Source of the DNA: Flavobacteriales bacterium
Lineage (GTDB): Bacteria; Bacteroidota; Bacteroidia; Flavobacteriales; UBA7430
NCBI GenBank assembly: GCA_029247585.1
Contig: JAQWKY010000031.1
Span: forward strand, 1-35,786
Reading direction: 5' to 3'
DNA: 35,786 bases
The notes under the pieces were generated by a model. That model searched no databases and had not been told where the DNA came from. It saw only the letters and a program-made list of their open reading frames with translations. The translations under genes and the position numbers were made by a program. Below, in pieces: positions 19,155 to 35,786 of this stretch (positions are counted from its first letter, which is position 1; each line of letters opens with the position of its first letter).

Positions 19155-19167
19155 AAACAGATTTATT

Positions 19168-19470
19168 ATGGACGTAAGATTTCATTCCATCAACTTTTCG
19201 GCGGATGTTAAATTGTTAGACTTTGCACAAAAAAAGATTAATAAGCTTGATGTTTTTTATGATCAAATAGTTGGAGGAGATGCTTATCTGAAAGTTGAGT
19301 CGTCTTCAAATCGAGAGAATAAATGGGTTGAGATTAAATTGAGAGTTCCCGGTAAAGAGATTGTCGTGAAAAAGTACGACAGGACCTTTGAAGGTGCGAT
19401 TGATCAAGGCGTAGACGTCTTGAGAAGGTCGCTAATTAAGTACAAGGGGAAAATGAAAACATTAGTGTAG
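19168..19470 (+). CDS. raiA: Ribosome hibernation-promoting factor, short form (HPF/RaiA family)
   Basis: A 100-residue protein from the ATG at 19168 (a GTG at 19144 overlapping xerC is less likely). MDVRFHSINFSADVKLLDFAQKKINKL matches the beta-alpha opening of the S30AE domain, and the C-terminal half (FEGAIDQGVDVLRRSLIKYK) forms its second helix. The family binds the 30S decoding centre and stores idle ribosomes. It starts 13 bases after xerC, probably on the same transcript. In this phylum it usually lies just before the tRNA-Thr cluster, as here. Confidence 0.93.
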   Translation: MDVRFHSINFSADVKLLDFAQKKINKLDVFYDQIVGGDAYLKVESSSNRENKWVEIKLRVPGKEIVVKKYDRTFEGAIDQGVDVLRRSLIKYKGKMKTLV

Positions 19471-19489
19471 AAAAAAAAGTTGTTCATTG

Positions 19490-19519
19490 TTTGAACTACG
19501 GTATAATTTGTTAAATTTG
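19490..19519 (+). promoter_or_regulatory. Bacteroidota-type promoter for the tRNA-Thr/tRNA-Tyr unit
   Basis: TTTG at 19490-19493 is followed after 18 bases by TAAATTTG at 19512-19519, a full TAnnTTTG match. It lies 51 bases upstream of mature tRNA-Thr, as expected for a stable-RNA promoter. Confidence 0.75.
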
Positions 19520-19547
19520 CAGTCTCTTTTAGGGAGGCTGTTTTTTT
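19520..19547 (+). terminator. Terminator-like hairpin between raiA and tRNA-Thr
   Basis: CAGTCTC at 19520-19526 pairs with GAGGCTG at 19534-19540 (one G-U pair), followed by seven T at 19541-19547. It most simply ends the raiA transcript. It begins at the base after the -7 element of the tRNA promoter, so a transcript starting about seven bases downstream would lack the left arm and escape the hairpin. Confidence 0.6.
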
Positions 19548-19570
19548 ATGCAGTAAAAAAAAGAGGATAT

Positions 19571-19644
19571 GCCGATGTAGCTCAGCTGGCTAGAGCAGCT
19601 GATTTGTAATCAGCAGGTCGTGGGTTCGAGTCCCTCCATCGGCT
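19571..19644 (+). tRNA. tRNA-Thr (anticodon TGT)
   Basis: A cloverleaf of 74 bases: acceptor stem GCCGATG / CATCGGC with discriminator T, D arm GCTC...GAGC, anticodon stem GCTGA / TCAGC around the loop TTTGTAA (anticodon TGT), and T arm GTGGG-TTCGAGT-CCCTC. No CCA is encoded. Confidence 0.97.
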
Positions 19645-19665
19645 CATAACGATCTTTAACATAAT

Positions 19666-19747
19666 GGGGAGATACTCAAGCGGCCAACGAGGGCAGACTG
19701 TAAATCTGCTGTTTTTAACTTCGCAGGTTCGAATCCTGCTCTCCCCA
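19666..19747 (+). tRNA. tRNA-Tyr (anticodon GTA)
   Basis: A cloverleaf of 82 bases: acceptor stem GGGGAGA / TCTCCCC with discriminator A, anticodon stem GCAGA / TCTGC around the loop CTGTAAA (anticodon GTA), a long variable arm as in bacterial tRNA-Tyr, and T arm GCAGG-TTCGAAT-CCTGC. No CCA is encoded. It is the last conserved element before the AT-rich accessory region. Confidence 0.97.
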
Positions 19748-20078
19748 CATCTTTCAGAGAAGAAAATCAATTAGTAGAATATTTAGTAGAATGTTATGGA
19801 GTTATTTACGCAAAAAAGGGTCTTAAACGACGTTTAAGTGACGTTTAATCGTGATAAAATTATTTTGGATCCCATTTTGCCCAGGACTTATATTCTTTTC
19901 TCTACAGTTCTTTCTTGACAATTAAGGCTATATTTAGCTCTTTTCTTACAAGATCCATAATGCAGTTAATTATTGCATGTCCTCTAATTCAAGGAATTTT
20001 TTTACTAATAGCTGGATATAGTGAAATTTTTTTGTTAATTTTTATACTTTAAATACTTAATAATTTAAATTTACTTAT
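19748..20078 (+). other. 331-base gene-free spacer with repeats after tRNA-Tyr
   Basis: No gene is visible. It holds a direct repeat TTAGTAGAAT at 19771-19780 and 19783-19792. It also holds a perfect palindrome TTAAACG-A-CGTTTAA at 19823-19837, whose right half recurs (GACGTTTAA at 19829-19837 and 19840-19848). A weak inverted repeat ATGCA/TGCAT lies near 19960-19978. The tRNA-Gly and second tRNA-Thr expected here in Bacteroidota are absent. The end of the spacer is very AT-rich and probably carries the promoter of the gene at 20079. It marks the boundary between core and accessory sequence. Confidence 0.7.
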
Positions 20079-20588
20079 ATGAAATGGCTAATTATAATTT
20101 TCTTAATTCCAACATTATTATTTTCTCAAATACCTTCAAAAGAAGATGATGAATATGACTTTTCATATATGCTTGAAGAAATGGAAAATGATAAAAATTT
20201 TGTTGATACTTATGATTTAAAAGGAATGATTAATTACTTTATTGAAGATTGTAAAAAGCATTCTATTTCTATTCCAAATAAAATGACAATTGATGCTACC
20301 TTAACGGAGTTGGCTAAAGGCACTATTGCTCATGCTTTAGGAATGGAGGATGACTCTATTATTCATATTGAAATAGATCCAGATCAATGGCATAAAGCTC
20401 AAATTGAAAAACGATGGTATATACTTTACCATGAACTTGGACATGATTTTTTAAATCTTAGACATGGAGAAGGTGGTAAAATGATGTATAATATTATTGA
20501 AAGAAATTATACTTGGTATGATTTTGTAAGAGATAAGGAAACAATGTTTAAAATTGTTAAGAGAGAGCCTTATAGCTATGAATATTAA
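20079..20588 (+). CDS. Small secreted putative zinc metalloprotease
   Basis: A 169-residue protein with a signal peptide (MKWLIIIFLIPTLLFSQ). HELGH at 118-122 with a further His129 in LNLRHGEG gives an HExxH-x6-H pattern, and GGKMM (about 132-136) could supply a Met-turn. This arrangement recurs in small Bacteroidota lipoproteins and secreted proteins annotated as putative metalloproteases. It is one residue longer in spacing than classical metzincins (HExxHxxGxxH). Residues 30-110 form a prodomain-like helical part. It is the first gene of the AT-rich region. Activity and substrate are unknown. Confidence 0.65.
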   Translation: MKWLIIIFLIPTLLFSQIPSKEDDEYDFSYMLEEMENDKNFVDTYDLKGMINYFIEDCKKHSISIPNKMTIDATLTELAKGTIAHALGMEDDSIIHIEIDPDQWHKAQIEKRWYILYHELGHDFLNLRHGEGGKMMYNIIERNYTWYDFVRDKETMFKIVKREPYSYEY

Positions 20589-20637
20589 AAATTATTTTCT
20601 TATTTGAATTAATATTATTTTTAAAGCAGTTTTATTT

Positions 20638-21261
20638 TCATTCTTTGTGTTGTTTCTTTAAAACTTTTTTCATATTTTTTATTGTATAAAAAATTGCTCC
20701 AGCCCAGTAATTTCTAAATCCAAATCCTTTAGGTGTAACTTGACGTCTTACTGACTTAATGACTTTTAATGTTTTTGTGTTAAACCAAACAACATATATT
20801 GTTGCAGTTTTAGAGGGTTTGTCAAAAGAATGCACAATCAATGAAACTCCTACTTCATTTTCATAATTAAATTTATATCTATTTACGATTTTTTGTATTT
20901 TTTTTGCATCAAAACCTTTAACTGGTATAATAGAAAACATATAGTTTTCATCAAGTATTGCATTGGCTTCAATCATGTTTCCAACAAGATAATTTACTTT
21001 ATTCTTTCCAAATTCCTTTTCAATATTATATTTCTCTTTTTGAGAATAAAACAGATTATTCCAATTAGGAATAAATTCATTTTTTAATCTGACAGGGTCT
21101 CCATATTCTTTTTTATTTCCAATAAATTTGACTGAAGAAAAATCCAATCCAACAAAATCTAATCCATATGATGCTTTAAACAAAACATCTTTTAAATCTT
21201 GTGCATTTAAAAAATTAATTGGTATTATTGAGATAAGAAATATTAATATATATTTTTTCAT
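20638..21261 (-). CDS. Secreted protein of unknown function (207 residues)
   Basis: A signal peptide (KKYILIFLISIIPINFLNAQ) precedes a soluble domain that I cannot assign. Visible features are a duplicated GLDF (GLDFVGLDFSSVKF, about 33-46), an invariant-looking RYKFNYENEVGVSLIVHSF (about 128-146) and a C-terminal RNYWAGAIFYTIKNMKKVLK. The ending resembles the FWSGAKF segment of the small secreted protein at 23842, which lies on the other side of the DUF5686 gene. It is divergent from the DUF5686 gene, with 49 bases between starts, so the two may share control. Confidence 0.7.
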   Translation of the reverse strand: MKKYILIFLISIIPINFLNAQDLKDVLFKASYGLDFVGLDFSSVKFIGNKKEYGDPVRLKNEFIPNWNNLFYSQKEKYNIEKEFGKNKVNYLVGNMIEANAILDENYMFSIIPVKGFDAKKIQKIVNRYKFNYENEVGVSLIVHSFDKPSKTATIYVVWFNTKTLKVIKSVRRQVTPKGFGFRNYWAGAIFYTIKNMKKVLKKQHKE

Positions 21262-21310
21262 TTTACTAATGTATTTTTGTGTTAATAGATGTAATAATTA
21301 TGTATAAGTT

Positions 21311-23809
21311 ATGAAAATTTGTTTAAGTATAAAATTTTTCTTTTTGCTGAGTGTTATTTATTCACAATCAAAGGTTAGTGGGATAATTGTTGATGCAAAC
21401 AGTAACCCTTTATCTTATGCAAGCATTTCTTTTTATAATTCTAATAATGGTACAATTAGTAATGAGGATGGAACATTTTATCTTGAATCTAATTTAACGC
21501 ATAATAAATTAGTAGTTAATTTTTTAGGCTATAAGACTAAGGAAATTATACTAAATGAAAAGATAAATTATAATTTAAAAATTATATTATATGAAAAAAA
21601 TGAAACGTTAAGTAAGGTTATTGTATTTGGGGGGAAACAATCAAAAAAAAACAATCCTGCAATAGATTTATTGCTAAAAGTAATTGGGAAAAATAATAAG
21701 GAAAATATTCTAAAGGTCAATCAATACAAATATGATAAATATGAAAAAATTGAATTCCAATTAAACAATATTGATAGTTCCTTTATGAATAAAAAGACAT
21801 TTAAAAATCTAGAATTTATTTTTAAGGATTTAGATACATCTAAATATTCAGGAATAAATTACCTTCCTTTTTTTGTAAATGAATCTATTTCAGAAATATA
21901 TGGAGATAATACTAATAATTCTTATAAAGAAGTATTAGTAGGATCAAAAAATTCCGGGTTTGATTCTAATCAGGCTATTATAGCCTTTACAGAGGACTTA
22001 AAAATTAACTACAATATCTATGACAACTATATTAAACTGTTTGAAAAAAGTTTTACAAGCCCTATTTCGAAACCAGGTATAAATTCATATAATTATGTGC
22101 TTTTTGATAGTACATATATAGATAATAGATGGTCATACAATATTATTTACTATCCTCGCAGAAAGAATGAATTGACATTTAAAGGTGATTTTTGGGTAAC
22201 TGATACTACATATGCTGTAAAAAAAATAAATTTAGAAGCAACAAAGAGCGCTAATATTAACTGGATAAAACAAATTTATATTGAGCAGGAGTATAAGGAA
22301 AACTTAAATGGTGTCTATTTAATTAATAAGGACTATTTATTGGCTGATATTAGTTATTCAAAAAAATATGATAAAAGAGGAATTTATGCAAAAAGGACTA
22401 CACTATTTGATAAATATATTTTTAATGAATCTAAGCCAAATCATTTTTATCAAGAATCAAAAAATAAGTATAATGATGAAATCTACAATAAAAATGACAT
22501 TTTTTGGAAAGAAAGGAGATTGGAATCTTTAAATGATGATGAGAGAGGTGTTTATAAATTGATAGACACCTTGAAAACAATTAAAAAATTTAATAGATTT
22601 TATGATATTGCAAGCATTTTAGGATCTGGTTATATTGAGATAGATAAATGGAATATTGATCTTGGTCCAATATATAATATTATTGGTTATAATGAAGTTG
22701 AGGGAAATAGATATAAGTTTGGTGGAAGAACTTTTTTTGATCAAAATGATTTATGGAGATTAAAAGGCTATTTAGCATATGGTGAACGTGATAAAAGAGT
22801 TAAATATGGGTTTTCTTCTAGGTTTTTAATTGATAAGAACAGTAGATTTATTATTTCTAATTCCCATAGAAATGATATAATCCAACTGGGAATGAATTTA
22901 AATGCTTTAGATTATGATATTTTAAATACAGGGATAGCCTCATCATCTATTGCGACTAAAGGAATTAATAATTTATTAACTAATGTTCAATCAACATCAT
23001 TAGATTTTGAAATTGAGCCAGTTATTAATTTTAAAATTAGTTTAAAAAATAGATTTAGTAAATTTGATTCAGCTGTCGAGGATCAATCATTTTTTTCTTA
23101 TTATGATTCATCTACCTCAACCGGTATAAGTAATGAAATAAATCAATTTTCTATACAGACTACTTTTTCATATACACCCGGAATGGAAGTAGTTGGATAT
23201 GGTGTGGAAAGATATCTTGTTGATTATGATTATAGTACAATTATCTTAAGATACACTAAAGGGTTAAAGGGGGTATTTAATAGTGATTTTAATTACGATA
23301 AAATACAATTTTCATATATAAAACCATGGTATATAGGTAGCATTGGTAAATTAAAAACTAGCTTACACATAGGTAAAACTATAGGAACAGTTCCTATAGG
23401 GCTATTACATATAATTCCAGGAAATCAAACAATATATTCTCTACCAGGGACTTTCCATAATCTGGATTATTATGAATTTATAGCAGACACCTATGCGGCA
23501 TTACACCTTGAACATAATTTTAATGGAAGAATTTTTTCAAGAATTCCGCTTCTAAGAAAATATAATTTAAGAGAAATTGTTGGCATTAGAGGTGTTTGGG
23601 GTGAAATCTCAGATAAAAACAAGCAACTTTCAACTCCTTCAGAATTAAATTTAGTAGCACCAAACAATAAAATTTATTGGGAATACTCATTTGGAATTTC
23701 TAATATTTTTAAAATTCTTAGAATAGATTTTAACTTTAGAGGAAATTATCTAGAAAACCCTAATTCTAGAAACTATAACATTACAGGCACTTTTGGTTTT
23801 AGTTTTTAA
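21311..23809 (+). CDS. DUF5686 outer-membrane protein with carboxypeptidase-like regulatory domain
   Basis: An 832-residue protein with a signal peptide (to about 19, VIYSQ). Residues about 20-105 are a CarboxypepD_reg-like domain (KVSGIIVDANSNPLSYASISFYN, then DGTFYL and LGYKTKEIIL). The DUF5686 part follows (NPAIDLLLKVIGKN, KYEKIEF, then YPRRKNELTFKGDFWVTDTTYAVKKI). The C-terminal 400 residues alternate in a beta-barrel pattern and end in Phe (GTFGFSF), as outer-membrane barrels do. It has no TonB-box or plug that I can see, so it is not a classical SusC protein. The family is common in Bacteroidota and its function is unknown. Confidence 0.85.
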   Translation: MKICLSIKFFFLLSVIYSQSKVSGIIVDANSNPLSYASISFYNSNNGTISNEDGTFYLESNLTHNKLVVNFLGYKTKEIILNEKINYNLKIILYEKNETLSKVIVFGGKQSKKNNPAIDLLLKVIGKNNKENILKVNQYKYDKYEKIEFQLNNIDSSFMNKKTFKNLEFIFKDLDTSKYSGINYLPFFVNESISEIYGDNTNNSYKEVLVGSKNSGFDSNQAIIAFTEDLKINYNIYDNYIKLFEKSFTSPISKPGINSYNYVLFDSTYIDNRWSYNIIYYPRRKNELTFKGDFWVTDTTYAVKKINLEATKSANINWIKQIYIEQEYKENLNGVYLINKDYLLADISYSKKYDKRGIYAKRTTLFDKYIFNESKPNHFYQESKNKYNDEIYNKNDIFWKERRLESLNDDERGVYKLIDTLKTIKKFNRFYDIASILGSGYIEIDKWNIDLGPIYNIIGYNEVEGNRYKFGGRTFFDQNDLWRLKGYLAYGERDKRVKYGFSSRFLIDKNSRFIISNSHRNDIIQLGMNLNALDYDILNTGIASSSIATKGINNLLTNVQSTSLDFEIEPVINFKISLKNRFSKFDSAVEDQSFFSYYDSSTSTGISNEINQFSIQTTFSYTPGMEVVGYGVERYLVDYDYSTIILRYTKGLKGVFNSDFNYDKIQFSYIKPWYIGSIGKLKTSLHIGKTIGTVPIGLLHIIPGNQTIYSLPGTFHNLDYYEFIADTYAALHLEHNFNGRIFSRIPLLRKYNLREIVGIRGVWGEISDKNKQLSTPSELNLVAPNNKIYWEYSFGISNIFKILRIDFNFRGNYLENPNSRNYNITGTFGFSF

Positions 23810-23841
23810 AATCACTATTTTTATAATAGACGACATTTATC

Positions 23842-24246
23842 ATGAAAAATAAAATTATACTCTTTTTATTATCAATTTTTTTTATCTCAATAAATAATCA
23901 AGCACAAGATTTAGATAGTTTACTAACGAGAGGGAATAAGGTTTTCATATCTTCTGAAAATAAGGGTGTAATAAAATATTCTAAAGAAAAGATTATACTT
24001 TGGAATTATTGGAAAATTGTTGAAGATGTTAATGAAGCTGATATAATCCTACATTTAGATGCTACCTGGTCAGGAGTATATAAAATTGCTAGTTATATTA
24101 CTACAAAGGATGATAAAATTATAAAGCGTTTTAGGACTGACGCGTGGAATAACTTTTGGTCAGGAGCAAAATTTAATGTAAAAAAAGGATCAGTATTTGG
24201 ACTGTTTGAGCAAGAAATCATTCCTTATGTTCACAGTCTAGAATAA
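23842..24246 (+). CDS. Small secreted protein of unknown function (134 residues)
   Basis: A signal peptide (KNKIILFLLSIFFISINNQAQ) is followed by about 110 residues without a family I recognise. The pattern NEADIILHLDATWSG, then YITTKDDKIIKRFRTDAWNN, then FWSGAKF suggests a small beta-rich domain. It starts 32 bases after the DUF5686 stop, so it is probably cotranscribed with it. The last 29 bases overlap the convergent adenylate-forming ligase gene. Confidence 0.65.
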   Translation: MKNKIILFLLSIFFISINNQAQDLDSLLTRGNKVFISSENKGVIKYSKEKIILWNYWKIVEDVNEADIILHLDATWSGVYKIASYITTKDDKIIKRFRTDAWNNFWSGAKFNVKKGSVFGLFEQEIIPYVHSLE

Positions 24247-25537
24247 TTTCCTTATTCCTATTGTCAATTAATTTTCTTTTTTTTCTACTTAATTTGGGGA
24301 ATTGTAATTCATTTAATTTTTCTTTGTCAATAAATTTAATTATTGGCGAGACTTTTATATTAGCTTTTAGAGATAGGATAATTTTATCACTTAACATTTT
24401 ACTTGGGCTATCTGACAATATTTTTATTATTATTTGATCAGATCCTACAACACTATTTAGTTCTAATATATAGTCATGAATTTCATTAAATTTATTTAAT
24501 ACATTATAGATCATATCAGGATATATTGATGTGCCTTTTAATTTTATCATATGATTTTTTCTGCCAATTACTGGACTTAATCTAAATGTATTTCTACCGC
24601 ATTTGCATTTTGTTGAATCTGTTTTAATAATATCACCGGTCTTAAATCTTAGAAGAGGCATTCCTTCTACTGCAATAGTTGTTATTGTTAATTCGCCAGG
24701 ACACCCTTTTTTTACAGGATTATCATTTTCATCAAGTACTTCAATAATTAATAATTCTGGATGATGATGACCACCCTTATTATATTCACATTCGGTAAAT
24801 GCAGCTCTCATTTCTGTAGAGGCATATGTTGAAAATAATTTAATATTCCAATTACTTTTAATTTTTTTTGACAATTCATTCTCTGAAAATTTTTCATTTC
24901 TTATGGATTCTCCAATGCATATTGCATTTTTAATACTGCAACTATTTAAATCTATATTATTTTTATCTGCATACTCGATTAATTTTAAAAGAAAAGATGG
25001 AACAGTAATTAAATAAGTAGGGCTATATTTTAATATACTATTCCACTGTAATTCTGGTGAACCAGCTCCAGTCCTAATTATACCACATCCAATTTTTCTA
25101 GCTCCCAAAAAGTACGCTAGACCTGCCATAAATTGTTTATCTATAGTTGTTGATAATTGAACAATATCATTATTATTTATACCTGCACATGCAAATGAAA
25201 TAGCCTCATTATAAGCCAGCATATTTAAATCTTTTTCAGTTAGTATTATTGATATAGGATCTCCTAATGTGCCAGAAGTTGTTGTATAATCAATAATTTT
25301 TTGTTTGGGAACACATATAAATTCTTCATTATATTTATGCAATTGTTCTTTTGTTGTTACAGGAATTTTTACAAGATCATTTATGGAATTAATTTCATTT
25401 AAATTAATATTATTTTTTATAAATAGATTTTTATAATATTTTGAGTTTTTATATAAATAGGCCATTAGCTTATTTAATTTATTATCTTGATAGTTCTTTA
25501 TTTCTTTACTAGATTTTAATTCAATCTTAGGAATCAT
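24218..25537 (-). CDS. Phenylacetate-CoA ligase-like adenylate-forming enzyme
   Basis: A 439-residue PaaK-like member of the ANL superfamily. The phosphate loop is TTSGTLGDP (86-94), STYASTEM (236-243) is the adenine-contact motif, FKTGD (298-302) follows, and GRKN (325-328) leads into the C-terminal subdomain with KGTSIYP. Cys residues at TEC (250), KCKCG (310-314) and the GGHHHPE segment fit the zinc site of PaaK relatives. Such enzymes activate aryl or fatty acids as acyl-adenylates and load them on CoA or a carrier protein. It is the last gene of the reverse-strand operon and overlaps the C45 gene by 11 bases. In a pigment cluster its likely substrate is a hydroxycinnamate-like starter, which is inference. 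Confidence 0.85.
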   Translation of the reverse strand: MIPKIELKSSKEIKNYQDNKLNKLMAYLYKNSKYYKNLFIKNNINLNEINSINDLVKIPVTTKEQLHKYNEEFICVPKQKIIDYTTTSGTLGDPISIILTEKDLNMLAYNEAISFACAGINNNDIVQLSTTIDKQFMAGLAYFLGARKIGCGIIRTGAGSPELQWNSILKYSPTYLITVPSFLLKLIEYADKNNIDLNSCSIKNAICIGESIRNEKFSENELSKKIKSNWNIKLFSTYASTEMRAAFTECEYNKGGHHHPELLIIEVLDENDNPVKKGCPGELTITTIAVEGMPLLRFKTGDIIKTDSTKCKCGRNTFRLSPVIGRKNHMIKLKGTSIYPDMIYNVLNKFNEIHDYILELNSVVGSDQIIIKILSDSPSKMLSDKIILSLKANIKVSPIIKFIDKEKLNELQFPKLSRKKRKLIDNRNKEIILDCEHKE

Positions 25538-27215
25538 AATTTAATTTCTTCTTTAATTTTTTAATATATTTTTCTATTTCTTTTTTTTCTGAAATAGTTG
25601 GGATTTCTTTTGATTGAGCAATATTAAATGCATCTAGTGATTTATTATATTGATTTGTGTAATAATAATATTCCCCTAGCAGAAAATATGGTTCCCAATA
25701 ATCTGAGTTTAATTCCTTTAAATTTTTAAGTGTTTCTATAAAGATATATTCCTTCTTTTTTATTTTCTTTTTAACTTTTTCACTTAATATTCTATATTGA
25801 TTATAATTTTTAAAATCAATACTATTTACAAAACTGTCTTTATCTATAGTAAGGTGTTCTTCAGCTATCGAATAATCTTCTTTAAATATAAAGTCCTCAT
25901 CAAATATTTTATTAAGGTCATAACAAACAAATTCACCTAATTGGTAGGGATTTGATGAAACCCATACTTTTAATTCATCTGGTTTAAATACAATGCTATG
26001 ATGGGCTAATAAATGATTTAGAGATTTTTCATTACCATAACCTATATTAACATCTTTTAATCCTTTGGTGTTTCTAAGAATACTAACGGCATCTTTAACA
26101 TTTAATTTATCTTTTGCGTCTATTAATTCTTCCATTCTTTCATATCTATATTTAGAATGACTTTCTTTTATTTGTTTATTATTTTTTCTGTCATTATAAT
26201 ATGTTTTACTTTGAAAATGGTTAGAACATATTAATTGATTATCATTTTTAACTTCATATACTCCAAACTTTTTTGGGGATACTTCTATTGTAATAGCTTT
26301 ATTATCTTTTGAGCTACCAATTAAAATTGCTTCTGAAACGAATACCTTTCTTTTTTTAGCTATATCAATCGCCTCATTAATATTTGATGCATATTGCAAA
26401 ATCTCCCTTGTTAGTAATGATATTGGGGTTTTAGCAGATATGGGGATACTTGATTTTCCAGAATTAATGGTAACAGTAAGTCCTTTTTCATTCATTCCTG
26501 AAACTACACCTATCATGCCTGCCCAAGTCACCGACATATATTTGTAACCTTTGTCTGGATTAATAAATGCAACAATTTTATTTTCAGCAAATTTATCGCC
26601 TGCATAAAAATCAAAATTTCTTCCAATGAGCAATTCTCCATCCTCAGTTTTATTATCCCAAGCAGCAAAAGAAGAACAACCAACTAAGGCTAGATCTTGC
26701 AAGGCATGCCCAATATCATGTGCTCCATGAAAATATAATAATCGAAGATATTTTTCAGCTATATAATCATATTGGTCTGAAGCATATTTTGAAAGACCAA
26801 AAATTTCTGCTTTATATTCATTTGGCACATTTAAATATATTTTTCTATTGTACCAAGATAAAAAGTGACGTAATATAGATTTCCATGTTTTAGAAGGGAC
26901 TAATTCATCGATTTTTCCCATAAATGATTCTTCTTGAATTTCAAATAACTCTTTAGTTAAGCTACCATGAATTAATACTCTTTCAAGGGCATCCCCTTCA
27001 ATTTTTAATTCCCATAAATCATGTTCGTTTTTTAATATAAAGTTATTGTCTATTTTATATGAAGTATCAGAGATCTTTATTCTATCACCAATATTAGAAT
27101 TTAGGTTAATGATATTAGGTTTATGATTTAGAGATTTTTTTACCCCACATGAATATAAAATCGTTACACATAATAAAATCATTCTAAATAATATTTTAAT
27201 TCTATTTATAGACAT
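25527..27215 (-). CDS. C45-type Ntn-hydrolase/acyltransferase lipoprotein with helical C-terminal extension
   Basis: A 562-residue protein with a lipobox ending LYSC (Cys23), so it is probably anchored in the outer membrane. The catalytic region reads LVGCSSFAAW, with Cys180 as the candidate autoproteolysis nucleophile, then GRNFDF (198-203), WAGMIGVVSGMNEKGLTVTIN (231-251) and SSKDNKAITIEVSPKKFGVYE. This is the pattern of C45 acyl-CoA:6-aminopenicillanate acyltransferase and phospholipase B-like enzymes. A helical C terminus (about 470-560, YWEPYFLLGEYYYYTNQYNKSLDAF) looks like one or two TPR repeats. It overlaps the ligase gene by 11 bases and follows the oxidoreductase by 15. A role in esterifying or hydrolysing the cluster product is likely but unproven. 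Confidence 0.82.
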   Translation of the reverse strand: MSINRIKILFRMILLCVTILYSCGVKKSLNHKPNIINLNSNIGDRIKISDTSYKIDNNFILKNEHDLWELKIEGDALERVLIHGSLTKELFEIQEESFMGKIDELVPSKTWKSILRHFLSWYNRKIYLNVPNEYKAEIFGLSKYASDQYDYIAEKYLRLLYFHGAHDIGHALQDLALVGCSSFAAWDNKTEDGELLIGRNFDFYAGDKFAENKIVAFINPDKGYKYMSVTWAGMIGVVSGMNEKGLTVTINSGKSSIPISAKTPISLLTREILQYASNINEAIDIAKKRKVFVSEAILIGSSKDNKAITIEVSPKKFGVYEVKNDNQLICSNHFQSKTYYNDRKNNKQIKESHSKYRYERMEELIDAKDKLNVKDAVSILRNTKGLKDVNIGYGNEKSLNHLLAHHSIVFKPDELKVWVSSNPYQLGEFVCYDLNKIFDEDFIFKEDYSIAEEHLTIDKDSFVNSIDFKNYNQYRILSEKVKKKIKKKEYIFIETLKNLKELNSDYWEPYFLLGEYYYYTNQYNKSLDAFNIAQSKEIPTISEKKEIEKYIKKLKKKLNYDS

Positions 27216-27230
27216 ATAGATTATTATTTG

Positions 27231-28748
27231 TTAGTTTCTGATTTTATTTAATAAATATTTTTGACCTAAAATTTCTGAACATGTAAGAACTCCTCCTACT
27301 GTAACACCAAGAACACCATGCATATTTAGGCATTGCCCTGTAAAAAATAGATTTTTAATTTTTGTTTTTGGAGAAATGAATGACCTAAGGGGTTTATTAA
27401 CATCTTTAACATATCCATATATTCCACCTTTATTAGATCCAATATAGTCCCTATATGATAACGGAGTAGAAGTATATACTTTTTTAATACAGTTTCGAAT
27501 ATTTGGAATTTTTTTTTCTATTTCATTGAGCAATTTTTCTGTCTTTATTTTTTTAAATTTTTCATAACTACTCCCCCTATCATTTCTGTTTATAGCATAA
27601 TTAAATGTATTCTCCCATTCTTTTACATCTGCATATTTCATATATGTCATAACTGTTAAGGTTTCACCCCATTTTGAGGTTTTATTATTAACACCCATTG
27701 ACATTACATAACCTTTAGGCCAAGTTTTATCTGAATAATCTTGTATATTCCATATATCATTGTAATCTTTTATATGATAATAATTTCTGTTTTGATATTC
27801 AAATGTGTTTGGTTTTAATACAATATATAAACTAAAACAACCAATAATACTCTCTATATTTTTAATTCTATTAACATAAGATTTTCTTAATAAATTAGTA
27901 TTAAGCAAATTTAATGTAAGCTTTGGATCTGCGTTTGATATAAAAAGGTTACCCTTAATTTCTTTTCCATTTGAACAAATTACAGAATTTACTTTGCCAT
28001 CTTTGAATTTAAATTCATTTACTTCATGTCTTTTGAAGGCATCTCCTCCCTTACTTTTTAATTTTCTTACTAATAGTTTAGAAATTTGACTACCTCCATT
28101 CACAACTCTATAAGAGCTTTCAATAAAAGAATTAACTGACAACGCATGAACATAAAATGGCGTGCGATCTGCATCTCCTGCGTATAAGAAGCTTGTACCA
28201 GACAAAACAGCTTGTAATTTTTTATTTTTTGTTAATGAATCGATTAAATCTTTTGCCCGAGTAGTTAATATTTTTGGATTTTTAAAATATGGAGGCTCTC
28301 CTTCTTCTACATTATATAATGGAAACATGTCACAACATTTTTTTAAAATTTCACAATATTTATTAATTGCTTTTTTTTCATTTGGAAAATTCTGTAATAA
28401 GGTATTTGAAAAATTTTTATATCCTTGAGCGTGCTTGTATTCTTTTTCATCATTATCAAAAGAAATAATATCAAATCCATCTTCATAAAGTTTTCTTAAA
28501 TTCAATTCATCAATTATTTCTAAATATTTGAAGTATTTATATAAATTTTGATCTTTATCTAATCCCCCTATGTAGTGAACTCCTGTATCAAAAATTGTTT
28601 TATCTCTTGAAAATGTTTGAAGATTGCCTCCAAATTGTTGATTCTTTTCAAGAATACAGACTCTTAGATTTTCTTTAGCTAGAATATTAGCGCAAACAAG
28701 ACCGCCAAGTCCACTACCAATGATAACAGCATCATATAAATCTTTCAT
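27231..28748 (-). CDS. CrtI/retinol-saturase-like FAD-dependent oxidoreductase
   Basis: A 505-residue flavoprotein. The N-terminal dinucleotide loop is DAVIIGSGLGGLVCANILA (6-24), followed by LEKNQQFGGN. The C terminus has FTGQCLNMHGVLGVTVGGVLTCSEILG, the second FAD contact of phytoene desaturase-like enzymes. Family members desaturate, isomerise or saturate long conjugated chains. Its position inside an operon with a dehydratase and an aryl-acid ligase suggests that it acts on a polyene chain rather than a carotenoid: no phytoene synthase is seen. It overlaps the exporter gene by four bases. Confidence 0.88.
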   Translation of the reverse strand: MKDLYDAVIIGSGLGGLVCANILAKENLRVCILEKNQQFGGNLQTFSRDKTIFDTGVHYIGGLDKDQNLYKYFKYLEIIDELNLRKLYEDGFDIISFDNDEKEYKHAQGYKNFSNTLLQNFPNEKKAINKYCEILKKCCDMFPLYNVEEGEPPYFKNPKILTTRAKDLIDSLTKNKKLQAVLSGTSFLYAGDADRTPFYVHALSVNSFIESSYRVVNGGSQISKLLVRKLKSKGGDAFKRHEVNEFKFKDGKVNSVICSNGKEIKGNLFISNADPKLTLNLLNTNLLRKSYVNRIKNIESIIGCFSLYIVLKPNTFEYQNRNYYHIKDYNDIWNIQDYSDKTWPKGYVMSMGVNNKTSKWGETLTVMTYMKYADVKEWENTFNYAINRNDRGSSYEKFKKIKTEKLLNEIEKKIPNIRNCIKKVYTSTPLSYRDYIGSNKGGIYGYVKDVNKPLRSFISPKTKIKNLFFTGQCLNMHGVLGVTVGGVLTCSEILGQKYLLNKIRN

Positions 28749-31700
28749 TTCTTTTTTAATATTAATAAATTTGAATTACTGAAAACCTCTTTAAAACCTA
28801 AATTTACAAATTGTTTAATTGACAAATATCTACTATTTTTTAAAAGAAAAAGTTTTGTGTTTTCTTTGTTAATAAATTTAGTAATATTGATGTTTTTATT
28901 TGTAGTATTTAATATAATCGAATTAGAATCATTTTTAGTAATCTCATCAATTTTGTCAGAAAATTTAATTTTTCTTCTATTATTTGTAATAAAGGAATTA
29001 TTTAAAATTTTTAATATTTTTCTATTTGAAATATAAGTATATATATTTCTGTCTATGCTATCTAAACATAATAGAAAATCTAATTGACCATGATCATCAG
29101 AGAAATGTAAGATTTGATCATCTGATTTTATATAATCTAATATTTTGTAATATATTTTTGAAAATTTGTTTAAATCTTGTTTTATTTTGATATATAATTT
29201 ATTGTCCTTAAAAATGTATTCTTTAAGTATAATTTCATTAAAGTACTTTTCTTTTTCAATTTGTTTTCTAAGCGAGGTATGTTCTTTTTTAAAATATCTA
29301 CTTATTTGTTTTTGTTTTTCTGAATAAGTTTTTCCATAATTCAAATCATTACTTTTAATTCTATTAAGAATTTTTATTGTAAATTTTCCTTTATTTATAA
29401 TAAATTTCCCTTTAGGCAATATTTCATGATTACCATGAATTAATATTGGTAATATATCTACATTTAGTTTTTCAGCTATAAAAAATGCTCCTTTTTTAAA
29501 TCTATTAATTTTATTTGATTTTGATCTAGTTCCTTCAGGAAAAACAATAATTGAATATCCTAGTTTGATGTTTTCTTTTAATTCATCAATCCCTATATCT
29601 ATTCCTTTTGATATTGAGTATGATCCTGTCAATTGCAAAATTTTTCCAAATAACGGTGAATTAATTACCCAGTCATTTGTAAGAAAAATAGATTTTGGAT
29701 TTAGCATTCCAATGGCTAAAATATCAAGAAATGATGCATGATTTGCTATAATTATTGAACTTGTATTAAACGTTTCTTTATATTCATTAATTATATTAAT
29801 TTTAATTCCAGGATATGTGTAGAATGTAAACTTCATAAATTTACTTACTAATCTATTAACCAGATACCTTTTTTTTGTTTTAGCTAATGGTAAGACAAAT
29901 ATTATTGATGTATAAATTGATAGTAATAATGATCCAACTACAAAACATGAAAATGAAAAAAATGAATTAATAGTTTGAGTGATTGAGGCAGGTGCCCTAA
30001 ACTTATTCCCTACAAGAATATTAAAGAATATGGGCTGTATGCTGAATGCAATTAGAATTGACAATGAAATCCCTATTATGGCTACTATAGAAATTGAGAA
30101 TAATGCTGGATGATTTGCAAAAACAAGAACACCAACACCTAAAAATGTAGTAATAAACGATATTATAATTGAACTTTTATGTATTAACAGAGATTTGTCT
30201 GAAAACTTATTTTCATTAATTAATCCATTCGTAATAAAAATGCTGTAATCTATTCCTAAGCCAAAAATTAAAGTTGAAATAATTATATTAAAGACGTTAA
30301 ATTCAATATTTAGAGCTCCCATTATGCCGATTGTTAAAAACCAGGTGATACAAATAGGGATTACAGTAGTTAGCGTAAGGGATAAATTTTTATAAAATAT
30401 TAGCAAAATAATAACAACTATTATAAGTGAATAAATCACCAATTTATTAAAGTCACTTTTTAAATCAATTAAAAACGATTCATTAATTTTTTCTCTGTCA
30501 ATTAAAATAGTATTTTCATTTTCAAGTATATTTTGAAGTTCAGGCAAAAAACTTATATTACTAATTTTAATTAAACTAGATATAGTAGCAAAACCATTAT
30601 TACTGCTTATATAGTCATCAATTTGAATAGGATTAATAGAATCAAAATCTTCAATTTTAGACAGATTATTTTTGTTGTCTATATTAGAAAAGAAATGATT
30701 AAAGGTGTTTTCTTTAAACCCATAATTTCTACTACTTTTTTCAAAATGTTTTTTCAATTCAATTATTTTGGATTTTGTCCAGAATGAATTCCAGTTGTTG
30801 ATTTTGATTTTCTGTAATGAGTCAGATACTATTAGACTTGAAATAGAGCTAAAGTCTAAAATTTTATTTTCTTTTAATAATGATTGTAGTTGATTATATA
30901 ATTTATCATTTGATATTAATGCATTTTCTATTGAATTACCGTACGATATAGCATATATAGATTTTGCTTCACTATTAATTAGTTTATCTAATTTTTTTTG
31001 CTCAACTAATATTTCATTTGGAATAAAATTCATTTTTGATAAATCTTCATTGAATTTTACTTTATCATATTTAAAAATGCTTGTAATAAACAGCATTAAT
31101 ATTATTAATAATATTAATTTATTTTTATGAAGCGAGTATTTCGAAATTCTGATTAATAAATCATTTTTTTTAGTATTATTTTGATAGAAATGTGGTATTA
31201 ATATTAACGCAAAAAATGAAGAAAAAAGTACACTAATAGAGGCAATTAATCCAAGATCTTGTAAAGCTTGTGATTTTAAAAAAAATAATGTTGAAAAGAC
31301 AATTGAGGTAGTAAGACTACTCATAAGTATAGGCCTTGTAATTTTATTGTAAAGCTCTTTGACATCATTATTATTTTTAATATGTGTTAATATATGCAAT
31401 GAATAGTCTATTGTAATACCTAGAAGAACCGATGCAATCCCCAATGAAATTGCTGATATACTATCCCTCATAAATGAAGTTATGGCTAAGGCAAATAAAC
31501 CACCAAATATTGTTGGAATAAATAATAAAAATGGTACAGTAATTTTTTTATAATAAAGAATAAATAGAATTATAAGTATACTTAGAGATATTGAAATTGT
31601 AAATTTTATATCATTTTTAATTTGTTTAGCATTAGCTAATGCAATAATAGAACCTCCATATAGATAAGCTGAAATTTTTTCATTATATATATGATTTAAT

Positions 31701-32413
31701 TCATCGGTTATATTATATAATTCTTCAATAAAAATTTCGTTGTTTTTGTTGTCAGTTATTGATATATTAGGAGATATAAATAATAATAATTCATTTTTAT
31801 TTTTGCTTATAATAAAATTATTGTATACAACAAAGTTTTTGTTAAAATTAAGTTCTTGAAGTTTTTTTAATCCAATCAAGGAAATTCCCATAGGATCTTC
31901 TATTGAAGTATTTTTTGTAATAAAACTTGATGGTGATATTAAGGATTTATAGATGTTAAATACTATATTTTCAATACTATCATTATTGATTTTATTATTT
32001 ATATTATTATAATCATTTTCATTAATAAATAATGGCATATGGTTATTAATATAATCTATAGTTTTTTCAATATTTTTATCTTCAAACTTGCCCTGTATAT
32101 TTTTAATGTATCTATTTACTTTTTTATTTACGTTTTCTATATACAATGATGCATATTCAGTTAAATCTTCTACAGTGCCTAAAGAATCTGTTGATATTCG
32201 AATTATAATTTTATCCTTAAATGTGGCTGTGTTGAGAATTTTCTTTATGTTATTGTTTGCTTCATTTTTTGGAATGAGTTTAGTTATATCTTCTTCAAAT
32301 TTTAGTCTTGATGAAAAAAATAAAAGCAAACATAAAGTGGCGAATAGTATTAATATTCCTATTAGCCTATTTGATTTAATATATTTATATAGATTATAAA
32401 ATAAATTGCTCAT
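28745..32413 (-). CDS. RND/MMPL exporter fused to PlsC-type acyltransferase and degenerate methyltransferase-like domain
   Basis: A 1222-residue fusion. Residues 1-840 are an MMPL/RND permease: a first membrane helix (about 16-34), a large periplasmic loop, five helices (about 268-408), then the same plan repeated (about 430-445, loop, 657-800). The paired motifs GITIDYSLH (332-340) and GLGIDYSIF (718-726) carry the proton-relay Asp336 and Asp722. Residues about 885-1015 are a PlsC acyltransferase with NHASFLD (891-897) and FPEGTRS (958-964). Residues about 1085-1222 look like a Rossmann methyltransferase whose SAM loop is decayed: FSDDHGQLDFLLCL (1104-1117) where DxGCGxG is expected. It overlaps both neighbours by four bases. 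Likely role: acylate and export a lipid-linked product. Confidence 0.85.
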   Translation of the reverse strand: MSNLFYNLYKYIKSNRLIGILILFATLCLLLFFSSRLKFEEDITKLIPKNEANNNIKKILNTATFKDKIIIRISTDSLGTVEDLTEYASLYIENVNKKVNRYIKNIQGKFEDKNIEKTIDYINNHMPLFINENDYNNINNKINNDSIENIVFNIYKSLISPSSFITKNTSIEDPMGISLIGLKKLQELNFNKNFVVYNNFIISKNKNELLLFISPNISITDNKNNEIFIEELYNITDELNHIYNEKISAYLYGGSIIALANAKQIKNDIKFTISISLSILIILFILYYKKITVPFLLFIPTIFGGLFALAITSFMRDSISAISLGIASVLLGITIDYSLHILTHIKNNNDVKELYNKITRPILMSSLTTSIVFSTLFFLKSQALQDLGLIASISVLFSSFFALILIPHFYQNNTKKNDLLIRISKYSLHKNKLILLIILMLFITSIFKYDKVKFNEDLSKMNFIPNEILVEQKKLDKLINSEAKSIYAISYGNSIENALISNDKLYNQLQSLLKENKILDFSSISSLIVSDSLQKIKINNWNSFWTKSKIIELKKHFEKSSRNYGFKENTFNHFFSNIDNKNNLSKIEDFDSINPIQIDDYISSNNGFATISSLIKISNISFLPELQNILENENTILIDREKINESFLIDLKSDFNKLVIYSLIIVVIILLIFYKNLSLTLTTVIPICITWFLTIGIMGALNIEFNVFNIIISTLIFGLGIDYSIFITNGLINENKFSDKSLLIHKSSIIISFITTFLGVGVLVFANHPALFSISIVAIIGISLSILIAFSIQPIFFNILVGNKFRAPASITQTINSFFSFSCFVVGSLLLSIYTSIIFVLPLAKTKKRYLVNRLVSKFMKFTFYTYPGIKINIINEYKETFNTSSIIIANHASFLDILAIGMLNPKSIFLTNDWVINSPLFGKILQLTGSYSISKGIDIGIDELKENIKLGYSIIVFPEGTRSKSNKINRFKKGAFFIAEKLNVDILPILIHGNHEILPKGKFIINKGKFTIKILNRIKSNDLNYGKTYSEKQKQISRYFKKEHTSLRKQIEKEKYFNEIILKEYIFKDNKLYIKIKQDLNKFSKIYYKILDYIKSDDQILHFSDDHGQLDFLLCLDSIDRNIYTYISNRKILKILNNSFITNNRRKIKFSDKIDEITKNDSNSIILNTTNKNINITKFINKENTKLFLLKNSRYLSIKQFVNLGFKEVFSNSNLLILKKK

Positions 32414-33594
32414 TTTAACTTAGTTTCGATAGCTTTTAATGATATATAGCTAATTAATCCAATAATAATTGAGGAAAAAAAGGCTAACGTAAAACTCCCT
32501 ATTAAATACAAATATAAATTCCCTTGTATTTCCATATAAATAGTATTATCTGAGTTATTATAATTAGAATCTCCAACAATAAATTTTCCAATATTAATGC
32601 TAGAATATATAATTATAGGTATAAGTGGTGGTATACTAATATTTGAAAATGTAAAGGCTAAGACTTTATTTAGTTTAAATATAACTGCTAAGAATAAAAC
32701 AATTAATGTTTGATAGCCCCAAAAAGGAGTAAGACCAATAAATATTCCGATAGAAATGGAAACAGCTTTTTTTAAACTAGAATCAGTATTCTCTAAAATA
32801 TCTTCATAAACAAATTTTTTTATATTTTTTTTTCTAAAATTTTTTACAAAATCTCTAGGCTTGATGTATAACAAAGCGTATATAACTAACCAGGTATTTA
32901 TTATGCTGATTCTTAAAAAATCTATAAAAGGCCTAAAGTGTGAAACTCTATTTTTTTTATAACTAACATTTATTGGAATATTTTTTATTTCAATTCCTTT
33001 CCATGCACTTTTAACAAGAATTTCTATTTCAAATTCAAATCTATTGGTAATTAAATTTACATCTTCAATTACATTTAGTGGATATAGCCTGTATCCTGAT
33101 TGCGTGTCTTTTAATTTAATATTAGTTTGAAAATTGAACCAGAAATTAGAAAAATTATTTCCAAATCTACTTCCAAAAGGAACACTAACTTTATTCATAT
33201 CCCTTGAGCCTATAATTATTATATTATTATTAGATTTAATTTTTATTTCCTCAAGAAATTTTGGAATATCTTTTGTATAATGCTGTCCATCAGAATCAAT
33301 AGTTATTGCATATTTTAATCCAATACTTTTTGCATAATTCATTCCTTTTTTCAATGAGAATCCCTTTCCAGAATTTTTATTATTTTTTAGTTTATGAATA
33401 TTTGCATATTGTTTTAATATTCTATTTGTTGAGTCAGTAGAGCCATCATCAATAACAATTATATGATCAGTAAGCTTTAATAAATTATTTATTATTGATT
33501 CTAATGTATTCTCATTATTATACGTTGGTATTATAACACAACATCTAAGTTGTCTAATTTTTTTTTTAATGCTATTTATATCTTTTTTCTTCAA
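32410..33594 (-). CDS. GT2 glycosyltransferase fused to DUF2062 membrane domain
   Basis: A 394-residue protein. Residues about 15-240 are a family 2 glycosyltransferase of the dolichol-phosphate mannosyltransferase kind: VIIPTYNNENTLES (20-33), DDGSTDS (49-55), the metal-binding DSDGQH (100-105) and QSGYRLYPL (165-173). Residues about 270-385 are a DUF2062 domain with two or three membrane helices and the motif GLTPFWGYQTLIVLFLA (287-303). The fusion predicts transfer of a sugar to a lipid at the inner membrane. The gene overlaps the exporter by four bases and abuts the dehydratase, so it is in the same operon. Donor and acceptor are not known. Confidence 0.88.
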   Translation of the reverse strand: MKKKDINSIKKKIRQLRCCVIIPTYNNENTLESIINNLLKLTDHIIVIDDGSTDSTNRILKQYANIHKLKNNKNSGKGFSLKKGMNYAKSIGLKYAITIDSDGQHYTKDIPKFLEEIKIKSNNNIIIIGSRDMNKVSVPFGSRFGNNFSNFWFNFQTNIKLKDTQSGYRLYPLNVIEDVNLITNRFEFEIEILVKSAWKGIEIKNIPINVSYKKNRVSHFRPFIDFLRISIINTWLVIYALLYIKPRDFVKNFRKKNIKKFVYEDILENTDSSLKKAVSISIGIFIGLTPFWGYQTLIVLFLAVIFKLNKVLAFTFSNISIPPLIPIIIYSSINIGKFIVGDSNYNNSDNTIYMEIQGNLYLYLIGSFTLAFFSSIIIGLISYISLKAIETKLK

Positions 33595-33969
33595 TTAAGA
33601 TTTTTTTAGAAATTTACCTTTAAATTTTACAGCAATCTTATCATTATCAAGCATAATATTATTCTTAACTATAATGAACTTATTTTCTTTTTGTAGAAAA
33701 ATTTCAAATAATAGAAAATTATTAATTATTGGATTAATTGGTGAAATATATTTTATGTTAATTATTTCCCTTAGAAAAAGCTCATAACCTAAATGTTCTT
33801 CTAGAATCTCTTTAATAATTTGAATACTTATTACCCCTGGGGTTATCGGGTTATTAGGAAAATGTCCATTATAAATATCATGGTCTTTATTCAATTTAAT
33901 TCTTACAATCAATTTATTATGATCTGAACTTATAGTTTCTGCATTGTTATAAAAACCTTTAAAAAGCAT
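33595..33969 (-). CDS. Hotdog-fold 3-hydroxyacyl-ACP dehydratase-like protein
   Basis: A 124-residue single-domain protein. NGHFPNNPITPGVISIQIIKEI (from 34) matches the FabZ active-site region, with catalytic His36. At the place of the FabZ glutamate it has Gln50. From memory, related dehydratases in Bacteroidota pigment clusters also carry a Gln there, so this may be a family trait rather than a loss. It would remove water from a 3-hydroxyacyl-carrier intermediate to add a double bond. The stop abuts the glycosyltransferase start. Upstream, 65 very AT-rich bases separate it from the lipoprotein gene, the largest gap in this operon. Confidence 0.8.
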   Translation of the reverse strand: MLFKGFYNNAETISSDHNKLIVRIKLNKDHDIYNGHFPNNPITPGVISIQIIKEILEEHLGYELFLREIINIKYISPINPIINNFLLFEIFLQKENKFIIVKNNIMLDNDKIAVKFKGKFLKKS

Positions 33970-34034
33970 GTATATATAGTTTATAGATTAACAATTTAAA
34001 AATAATATATAATAATTATATTAAAATATACAAT

Positions 34035-34658
34035 TCAATTATTGAGAAATTCAAGATGAATAGTAATTGATGGATTAAAATTTTGAATTTTAATATTTGT
34101 AGCTATGTTATTTTGAATTTTATTAAAAGAAATAAATCTTTTTTTAAATCCTTTATTTATATTATATATTTCAATTAATGTATTAGTTGTATCTAGCAAA
34201 TATAAGATCTCTTTTCTTTCTTCTTTAGATTTATATATAAGTCTATTATTTTTTTTGTATGCAAATTTAATCTTATTATTCCCATAGATTAAATTTGTAA
34301 TATTGTCCCTCAATAATTTTTTAAAATATTTTTTGTCAATTTCAGCATTAATTGATTTCCATTTAAAATCATTTCTGCTGACTTCTATGTCAAATAATTT
34401 ATAACCAAATCCTGACATAAATACAATTCTATGGTAAATTGAATCTGTTTTTTTGATTGAAATTATCCCATTAATTTTTTTTTTGTTTTTCTCTATTTTA
34501 ACTGTGTAGTTATAGTCTATTTTTTTATTAGAGAAATAAGGATTTTCAATTTTATTTTTAGATGAATTATAAATATTTAAATCATGAAGTTCTTTAAACC
34601 CACAACCTAGAGATAGACTAAGAATAAAAACTATTATCAACCTTTTAGTTAATATCAT
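34035..34658 (-). CDS. LolB-like outer-membrane lipoprotein (putative)
   Basis: A 207-residue lipoprotein with a lipobox ending SLGC (Cys19). The mature part alternates strands in the manner of the LolA/LolB half-barrel: YTVKIEKNKKKINGIISIKK, then YHRIVFMSGFGYKLFDIEV, then RNDFKWKSI, with a C-terminal ITIHLEFL strand. LolB proteins accept lipidated cargo from LolA at the outer membrane. Similarity is structural in pattern, not a clear motif match. Direct pairing with a LolA-like gene (overlap of 14 bases upstream) supports it. A DUF3261-type lipoprotein of aryl-polyene clusters is the alternative. Confidence 0.6.
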   Translation of the reverse strand: MILTKRLIIVFILSLSLGCGFKELHDLNIYNSSKNKIENPYFSNKKIDYNYTVKIEKNKKKINGIISIKKTDSIYHRIVFMSGFGYKLFDIEVSRNDFKWKSINAEIDKKYFKKLLRDNITNLIYGNNKIKFAYKKNNRLIYKSKEERKEILYLLDTTNTLIEIYNINKGFKKRFISFNKIQNNIATNIKIQNFNPSITIHLEFLNN

Positions 34659-35253
34659 TATTTATTATTTTATTGAACAATACAATTTTAGTATAATCAT
34701 TTTCATCTTCAAGGATTTTAATTTCTAATACACCATAATTATTTTTATCAAATAATAATTCAAACGCTGAAAAATATTTGATTAGGGAAGTGTCTTTTAC
34801 TATAAATCTTATATAATAATTTGTGCTGTTATCATAATATTCAATATTGAATTTTTCTTTATCAAACATGTCCCCCTTTAAGGTATTAGCTATAATTTTA
34901 TTTAGTTCTTTAAATAGCTCATTTGAGCTAATATCTATTTGATTTATATTTCCTTCATTATTGATAGTAAGCTTTTCTTTTTCAAAAATACATTCATAGT
35001 TAAAAGGGTAATTATAGTCCCATTTTATATAATTTGGTTCTATATATACAAGATTACCCCTAGAAATAATATCTTTTTCTAAAAAGCTCAAATGTTTATA
35101 TTGTACAAAATCACTAATTATATTTTTAGTATTTAATGAACTATTTATAATATTATTCTTTAGTTTATTTGATTCTACTTCTTTTAGTAAAATTTGACCT
35201 ATAGAAGATTGATAAATAAGGAGAAAAAATAAAATTAATTTACGCATATGCAT
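34645..35253 (-). CDS. LolA-like periplasmic lipoprotein carrier
   Basis: A 202-residue protein with a signal peptide (RKLILFFLLIYQSSIGQ). The mature part follows the LolA pattern: IISDFVQYKHLSFLEKDIISRGNLVYIEPNYIKW as the first strands, then YPFNYECIFEKEKLTINN, and a later hydrophobic FSAFELLFD. LolA binds acyl chains in a hollow half-barrel and shuttles them across the periplasm. Encoded inside a biosynthetic operon, this copy is probably dedicated to the cluster product and separate from the housekeeping LolA. It overlaps both neighbours by 14 bases. Confidence 0.78.
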   Translation of the reverse strand: MHMRKLILFFLLIYQSSIGQILLKEVESNKLKNNIINSSLNTKNIISDFVQYKHLSFLEKDIISRGNLVYIEPNYIKWDYNYPFNYECIFEKEKLTINNEGNINQIDISSNELFKELNKIIANTLKGDMFDKEKFNIEYYDNSTNYYIRFIVKDTSLIKYFSAFELLFDKNNYGVLEIKILEDENDYTKIVLFNKIINNDIN

Positions 35254-35786
35254 TTAGATTAAATAGTTTGTCTATTGTTATTGATTTATAATTATTCTTC
35301 TTAAGAAATATTAATATCATTTCAAGGAGTTTAATTGTTGTATTGCTTTTGTCATGCAGTAAAATTATTGATCCTGGATGTATTTTTCTTGAAATTATAT
35401 GAAAAATTATATTTGGATTCTTAATAATTGTATCATATGTTCTTATATTCCATCCGATTACTTTATGTCCAGTTTCTTTAATTGCTTTAGAAATCATTGG
35501 ATTTGTTACACCAAATGGTGGGCGGAAAAATATCATATTTTTATTTGTAATCTTAAATATTTCTTTATTAGTTTCATCTATTTCTTTTAGTATTCTTTTT
35601 TTACTAAAAAAACCAATTAAATTACTATGAGTATATGTATGATTCCCAATAGTATGCCCATCATCAATTATTTTTTTAATCAGGCTAGGATTTGACTTAA
35701 TATTTTTTCCTATACAAAAAAAGGTTGCTTTTGCATTATATTTTTTTAATAAGTTTAGAACTTTTGGAGTATAGTCCAAATTTGGA
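35240..35786 (-). CDS. NodB-like polysaccharide deacetylase, cut by window edge
   Basis: The frame stays open to the right edge, giving 182 codons. It begins in PNLDYTPKVLNLLKKY, the part that normally follows the TFDDGP motif, so the first catalytic Asp lies just outside. Visible NodB motifs are ATFFCIG, GNHTYTHSNL (with the two zinc His), RPPFGVT and IILLHD near the C terminus. These enzymes remove N-acetyl groups from sugars with a bound metal. It overlaps the LolA-like gene by 14 bases. A TTG at 35777-35779 could be read as a start but would delete the catalytic motif. Confidence 0.85.
   Translation of the reverse strand, partial: PNLDYTPKVLNLLKKYNAKATFFCIGKNIKSNPSLIKKIIDDGHTIGNHTYTHSNLIGFFSKKRILKEIDETNKEIFKITNKNMIFFRPPFGVTNPMISKAIKETGHKVIGWNIRTYDTIIKNPNIIFHIISRKIHPGSIILLHDKSNTTIKLLEMILIFLKKNNYKSITIDKLFNLNAYA

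Follow-up and report, generated by a model that had tools for sequence, protein, structure and literature searches.

What does a chain that joins an RND permease, an acyltransferase and a methyltransferase-like tail export, and what has become of its tail? Both questions are raised by a gene on the minus strand, at positions 28745-32413, of contig JAQWKY010000031.1 from a Flavobacteriales bacterium, whose 35,786 nucleotides were analysed as a whole (hereafter the window). The orange pigment flexirubin has long been a classic marker in the chemotaxonomy of Bacteroidota, and to our knowledge its route to the outer membrane has not been established. Our reading is that the chain is probably a flexirubin-type aryl-polyene exporter of Bacteroidota that works by the mechanism proposed below and carries a pseudo-methyltransferase tail. 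Protein and operon are in themselves of an ordinary kind, and the protein already has a name; the one feature that merits re-examination is that, across a whole clade, an enzyme domain has become a pseudo-enzyme module and been retained.

A single chain with three modules

The reading frame begins with ATG, contains zero internal stops and encodes 1222 amino acids, in which an MMPL permease, a PlsC acyltransferase and a pseudo-methyltransferase follow one another in a putative FlxU-type flexirubin exporter. A Pfam search of the whole chain returned MMPL in two stretches (56 bits) and Acyltransferase (66 bits), both above their cut-offs, and left the tail without any match. Residues 1-835 (29909-32413) form the RND/MMPL permease, for which the Pfam match and the fold model indicate a 12-transmembrane (TM) RND fold with two periplasmic domains. 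Intramembrane aspartates of TM4 and TM10 lie in GITIDY (residues 332-337, 31403-31420; proton-relay-type D336) and GLGIDY (residues 718-723, 30245-30262; D722), and both are invariant in the homologue alignment. The PlsC-type acyltransferase occupies residues 836-1035 (29309-29908; PF01553), and residues 843-1020 match Thermotoga PlsC (5kym) with an E value of 3e-16 in phmmer. Its HX4D catalytic motif, NHASFLD (N891-D897, 29723-29743; N891, H892 and D897 invariant), and its acyltransferase motif III, FPEGTRS (residues 958-964, 29522-29542; F958, P959, E960, R963 and S964 invariant), are present across the family. Linker helices and the tail make up residues 1040-1222 (28748-29296). The model of the nearly full-length chain was weaker than that of the tail (pLDDT of 80.5), and its best fold matches in the PDB were HpnN and MmpL4, MmpL5 and MmpL3.

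Selective constraint was estimated by the Nei-Gojobori method, a simple counting method used here on 758-763 related pairs at 80-97% identity, and median dN/dS was 0.055 for the permease, 0.087 for the acyltransferase and 0.238 for the tail, with a tail maximum of 0.49.

Full-length colinear homologues, about 38-50% identical, are found in hundreds of Bacteroidota genomes. When genome contigs were scanned with the alignment as query, relatives at E ≤ 1e-60, most of them full length, appeared in 24 genomes of a phylum-wide sample of 296 and in 72 of 396 genomes of the class, and relatives at E ≤ 1e-100 in 84 of 396 genomes sampled in the order. A preliminary description of this DNA had placed the three modules on one chain, with a GxxIDY motif in each RND half and intact NHASFLD and FPEGTRS motifs, and in this it holds on the evidence of Pfam, structure prediction and the colinear homologues. 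The search for this domain order across Bacteroidota that it had proposed found the same order recurring and gave no support to a permease/acyltransferase fusion artefact; fusion through an assembly error is ruled out, since a great many independent genomes carry the chain in colinear form.

That description had also recognised the loss of a cofactor loop in the tail, discussed below, but it overlooked both the flexirubin operon and the fact that the family already has a name. The RefSeq protein WP_264793640.1 of Aureispira anguillae agrees with the window chain in its three modules, in their order and in the genes downstream; it is entered as a 'trifunctional MMPL family transporter/lysophospholipid acyltransferase/class I SAM-dependent methyltransferase', so the architecture was already known to annotators. 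The window tail, however, is without a SAM motif, and the third part of this name should therefore not be applied to it as an activity; in Flavobacteriaceae, naming these proteins 'SAM-dependent methyltransferase' would mislead. A literature search found no paper that names a trifunctional MMPL protein or the triple fusion, which is weak evidence of absence as subscription journals lay outside the search, and in the literature searched no biochemical test of any member of the fused family was found.

The gene belongs to a flexirubin operon

The genes around the exporter all lie on the minus strand. On its 5' side are a polysaccharide deacetylase (35240-35785; PF01522), cut by the contig end and open at its 5' end, the flexirubin biosynthesis/transport protein LolA2 (34645-35253; NF053544, 188 bits, cut-off 125), the flexirubin protein LolB2 (34035-34658; NF053540, 129 bits, cut-off 60), a FabA/ApeI-like dehydratase (33595-33969) and a GT2 glycosyltransferase with DUF2062 whose N-terminal half resembles ApeJ (32410-33594). 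On its 3' side are a phytoene-desaturase-like FAD oxidoreductase, assigned to the flexirubin operon by synteny (27231-28748), a C45-family autoproteolytic acyltransferase/hydrolase (25527-27215; NF040521 and synteny) and FlxY, the flexirubin acyl-CoA ligase (24218-25537; NF053551, 650 bits, cut-off 520). The operon is recognised by LolA2, LolB2, the GT2/DUF2062 gene, the C45 gene and FlxY around the exporter, and FlxY, LolB2 and LolA2 exceed the cut-offs of flexirubin-specific NCBIfam equivalogs.

The same arrangement was seen at 80 named loci with a homologue, nearly all from Flavobacteriaceae, where gene order equals that of the window in nearly all cases. The glycosyltransferase and the oxidoreductase stand beside the exporter at 80 of 80 loci; the C45 gene is present at 79 and FlxY at 78, while the deacetylase, LolA2, LolB2 and the dehydratase are each present at 74-75. 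Overall, we conclude that the window gene belongs to the export-related half of an operon for flexirubin, an aryl polyene.

Two observations were made in passing. One public contig (L091) bears the label of a Bifidobacterium breve MAG, but its flexirubin locus is typical of Flavobacterium and groups with Flavobacterium on the tree; this record is mislabelled or contaminated. In the window, a small secreted-type protein encoded at 20638-21261 has weak homologues (23-25% identity) near flexirubin genes at two loci (L143 and L145), and it may belong to the operon neighbourhood without having been recognised as such.

A probable chimera at about 19.6 kb

Positions 1-19,640 of the window have a GC content of 0.37 and are syntenic with two genus mates, to whose proteins theirs are mostly 70-95% identical. 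This stretch ends with a tRNA-Thr gene (19571-19645, 75 bp) that is identical to the genus mate's, and divergence begins immediately after it: within the junction region (19571-19748) the spacer is unlike that of the genus mates and the tRNA-Tyr is of another type, and the roughly 16 kb that follow (19750-35786), with a GC content near 0.235, include the flexirubin genes. A tRNA-Tyr of the genus-mate type lies on another contig (C10) of the same MAG, the exporter was not found in any other sampled genome of the window's family, and on a tree of permease and acyltransferase the window protein groups with marine Flavobacteriaceae. The likely explanation is a chimeric contig, misjoined at the identical 75-bp tRNA gene at about 19.6 kb, with a genomic island as the alternative. 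Assignment of the gene to this MAG is unsafe, although its integrity is unaffected by either explanation, as it lies 9 kb from the junction. At one other locus (L026), ketosynthase genes come next upstream, along with those for an acyl carrier protein and a methyltransferase. This biosynthetic half of the flexirubin cluster (ketosynthases, methyltransferase) was not found in the window's assembly; because the operon runs off the end of the contig, which is itself probably chimeric, its absence is no argument against the gene.

A proposed route of acylation and export

In the published model for the aryl polyene of Escherichia coli, ApeD and ApeJ anchor the molecule, ApeM takes it across the inner membrane, and the LolA/LolB-like proteins ApeL and ApeN deliver it (PMC8253772). 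For the flexirubin of Chitinophaga, flxP-flxU (deacetylase, acyltransferase, LolA, glycosyltransferase and exporter) have been assigned to pigment export, a role that was proposed and not studied (PMC3992019). The profile of the family described here matches ApeM at the permease region (E of 1e-41) and ApeD at the acyltransferase region (E of 6e-24). Module order, family, operon and the intact acyltransferase and permease motifs are established for the window chain; cargo, acyl acceptor and direction of transport are what we infer. The cytoplasmic PlsC domain would sit at the inner leaflet beside the permease and transfer an acyl group, most likely the aryl polyene, to a membrane-bound acceptor; the proton-driven RND permease would then move the product out of the inner membrane, and LolA2 and LolB2 would bring it to the outer membrane. 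Within the fused chain, the acyltransferase could plausibly pass its product straight to the permease, which fits the aryl-polyene model, in which ApeD acts before ApeM. Such a chain would physically couple acyl transfer and export.

The acyl acceptor might instead be the resorcinol itself, with PlsC making the polyene acid-dialkylresorcinol ester and the permease exporting finished flexirubin. The product of the pathway is indeed a polyene ester of dialkylresorcinol (PMC3992019), and an intact, strongly constrained acyltransferase (dN/dS of 0.087) is fused to the exporter. We nevertheless regard this as doubtful, because ApeD homologues in aryl-polyene clusters are believed to link the polyene to an anchor of the glycerophospholipid type (PMC8253772), and because the ester bond has other candidate makers in the C45 acyltransferase and the ligase-like FlxW, the latter already proposed for it.

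Methyltransferase ancestry of the tail

Residues 1040-1222 were modelled with AlphaFold2 on the basis of 64 homologous tails. Confidence was high along the entire segment (pLDDT of 94.5, pTM of 0.90), and its strands and helices follow one another as in class I methyltransferases, in a seven-stranded Rossmann-type fold. All 50 matches listed by Foldseek against the PDB were class I SAM-type folds (probability 1.00), nearly all of them methyltransferases. The glycine-rich SAM loop of motif I is absent from the window tail, as is the acidic residue after strand 2. In its place stands HFSDDHGQLDF (residues 1103-1113, 29075-29107), which profile alignment sets against DIGCGYGFLSY of intact homologues. 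Comparison of the two sets of tails by hhalign shows them to be homologous (98.9%, E of 2e-17, 139 columns, linker included). Intact tails score as Methyltransf_25/11/31 and related families, and GQLD-type tails have no methyltransferase-type family score. Both the Rossmann-like C-terminal segment and the lost SAM-binding glycine loop, as first described from the bare sequence, are borne out by these results.

Descent of the tail from the pathway methyltransferase ApeB was considered and is ruled out, as ApeB matches a separate, free-standing methyltransferase gene of the flexirubin operon (46% identity, E of 1e-118). An ApeB-type gene also adjoins a copy with an intact tail (L143); the tail's original methylation target was therefore probably other than that of ApeB.

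The SAM motif was lost once in a whole clade

The D-x-GCG[YF]G loop is intact in 41 of 139 homologues; a GQLD-type motif is carried by 90 and a close variant of it by 8. Loss of the loop is common to all 98 homologues examined from a Flavobacteriaceae/Weeksellaceae-like clade, in which a new conserved motif, ILHxSxDxGQLD, is present and the tail is shorter by about 60 residues, the C-terminal part among them; outside this clade, nearly all sampled homologues retain an intact SAM loop (D-x-GCGYG). On a quick-search tree of 59 representatives, built from permease and acyltransferase columns only, the intact and GQLD sets fall on the two sides of a single branch (SH-aLRT of 100), and by this phylogeny the loss has one origin in the clade. 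Recent decay in the window gene is thereby ruled out, and to call its tail 'decayed', as was done initially, misleads if taken as a mutation of this one gene. Since another family within the order (f8; L208-L210) also has the intact form, the change occurred inside the order. In a different family, one homologue (G487; L215:1562-5056) has a SAM loop altered in another way (DNCGQG) and a shortened tail, and may represent a second, independent loss of the methyltransferase.

The tail is retained and probably non-catalytic

With a dN/dS of about 0.24 that never exceeds 0.49, the pseudo-tail is under weaker but real constraint. Pairs with an intact SAM motif gave a tail dN/dS of 0.055, a comparison that is indicative only, as 2-5 pairs per module were usable. 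The best-kept residues are H1103, D1107, G1109, Q1110 and D1112 of the tail and R1049, E1053, Y1057 and K1069 of the linker; the five tail residues are mostly or wholly conserved over 64 diverse tails, G1109 in 64 of 64, and beyond the GQLD motif the tail is poorly conserved. Methyltransferase descent and fold, a single origin of the change and a weakened but continuing constraint are established. The tail is most likely a retained pseudo-methyltransferase scaffold, folded and probably non-catalytic; it is its loss of catalysis and its role that we infer. One possible role, put forward tentatively, is in binding: a single conversion in the Flavobacteriaceae/Weeksellaceae-like clade would have made the tail a new binding module, marked by HxSxDxGQLD, to which the aryl-polyene carrier protein, an intermediate of the pigment or some partner docks at the exporter, independently of the acyltransferase.

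Natural variants bear on this point. In two genera of the order (G1069 and G1016; L211:2528-5503 and L212:2365-5340), the acyltransferase has been deleted and the pseudo-tail retained in chains of 991-992 amino acids; the first of these tails matches the tail profile (E of 1e-16), and the two are 37% identical. In another genome of the order (G170; L138:8074-10512), the exporter is a permease alone, of 812 amino acids, in an operon that is otherwise similar but has neither acyltransferase, tail nor FAD oxidoreductase, and in which LolB2 was not detected. Acyltransferase and tail are therefore not strictly needed for every variant of the pathway. A 291-amino-acid reading frame that follows this permease is cupin/JmjC-like, as judged by eye. 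Intact methyltransferase tail, pseudo-tail, tail without acyltransferase and permease alone together provide a ready series for dissection of the modules.

A purely vestigial tail is an unlikely reading; on it, the methyltransferase, once inactivated, would be eroding slowly and be tolerated since it is folded and harmless to the exporter. In favour of this, the tail's dN/dS is fourfold that of the permease, it has no remaining Pfam match, a second lineage shows an altered SAM loop with a shortened tail, and the permease-only exporter has lost it completely; relaxed dN/dS and weak conservation past GQLD are also consistent with slow loss. Against this stand a dN/dS well below 1 in all pairs, the conservation of H1103, D1107, G1109, Q1110 and D1112 across diverse tails, and retention of the tail in the two genera despite deletion of PlsC. 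Less likely still is a tail that has remained an enzyme and uses its new motif to bind SAM or some other nucleotide-like ligand: a strongly conserved motif does occupy exactly the former cofactor-loop site, but the D-x-G-x-G signature has disappeared, a different residue stands in for the acidic one after strand 2, about 60 residues are missing, the C-terminal part included, and the pathway already has its separate methyltransferase, 46% identical to ApeB. The retained, non-catalytic scaffold is thus preferred, and its domain derives from a class I methyltransferase still intact elsewhere in the phylum, with the SAM motif lost once in the Flavobacteriaceae/Weeksellaceae-like clade and the folded module perhaps kept for docking or ligand binding.

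Comparison with known systems

The solved relatives HpnN and MmpL3, MmpL4 and MmpL5 share the RND lipid-exporter fold of the window permease but are without an acyltransferase or methyltransferase domain. A general phospholipid- or hopanoid-type exporter with no pigment role is highly improbable: HpnN and MmpL proteins are its best solved relatives, but the linkage to flexirubin genes is near-universal and the chain scores far under the HpnN and HAE3 family cut-offs (78 bits for the NCBIfam HpnN model, cut-off 752). Also related are E. coli ApeM (RND) and ApeD (lysophospholipid acyltransferase), which are homologous to the first and second modules and are encoded in an operon with LolA/LolB-like and GT2 proteins; they are separate genes, whereas the window has one fused chain, and ApeB is related to the window tail through its fold only. 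A further parallel is the flxP-flxU cluster of Chitinophaga pinensis, with deacetylase, LolA, dehydratase, glycosyltransferase and exporter/acyltransferase, then oxidoreductase, C45 gene and FlxY, and by gene order the window gene fits flxU. Homologues of this kind outside Flavobacteriaceae differ from the window chain in having an intact methyltransferase tail and in being about 60 amino acids longer.
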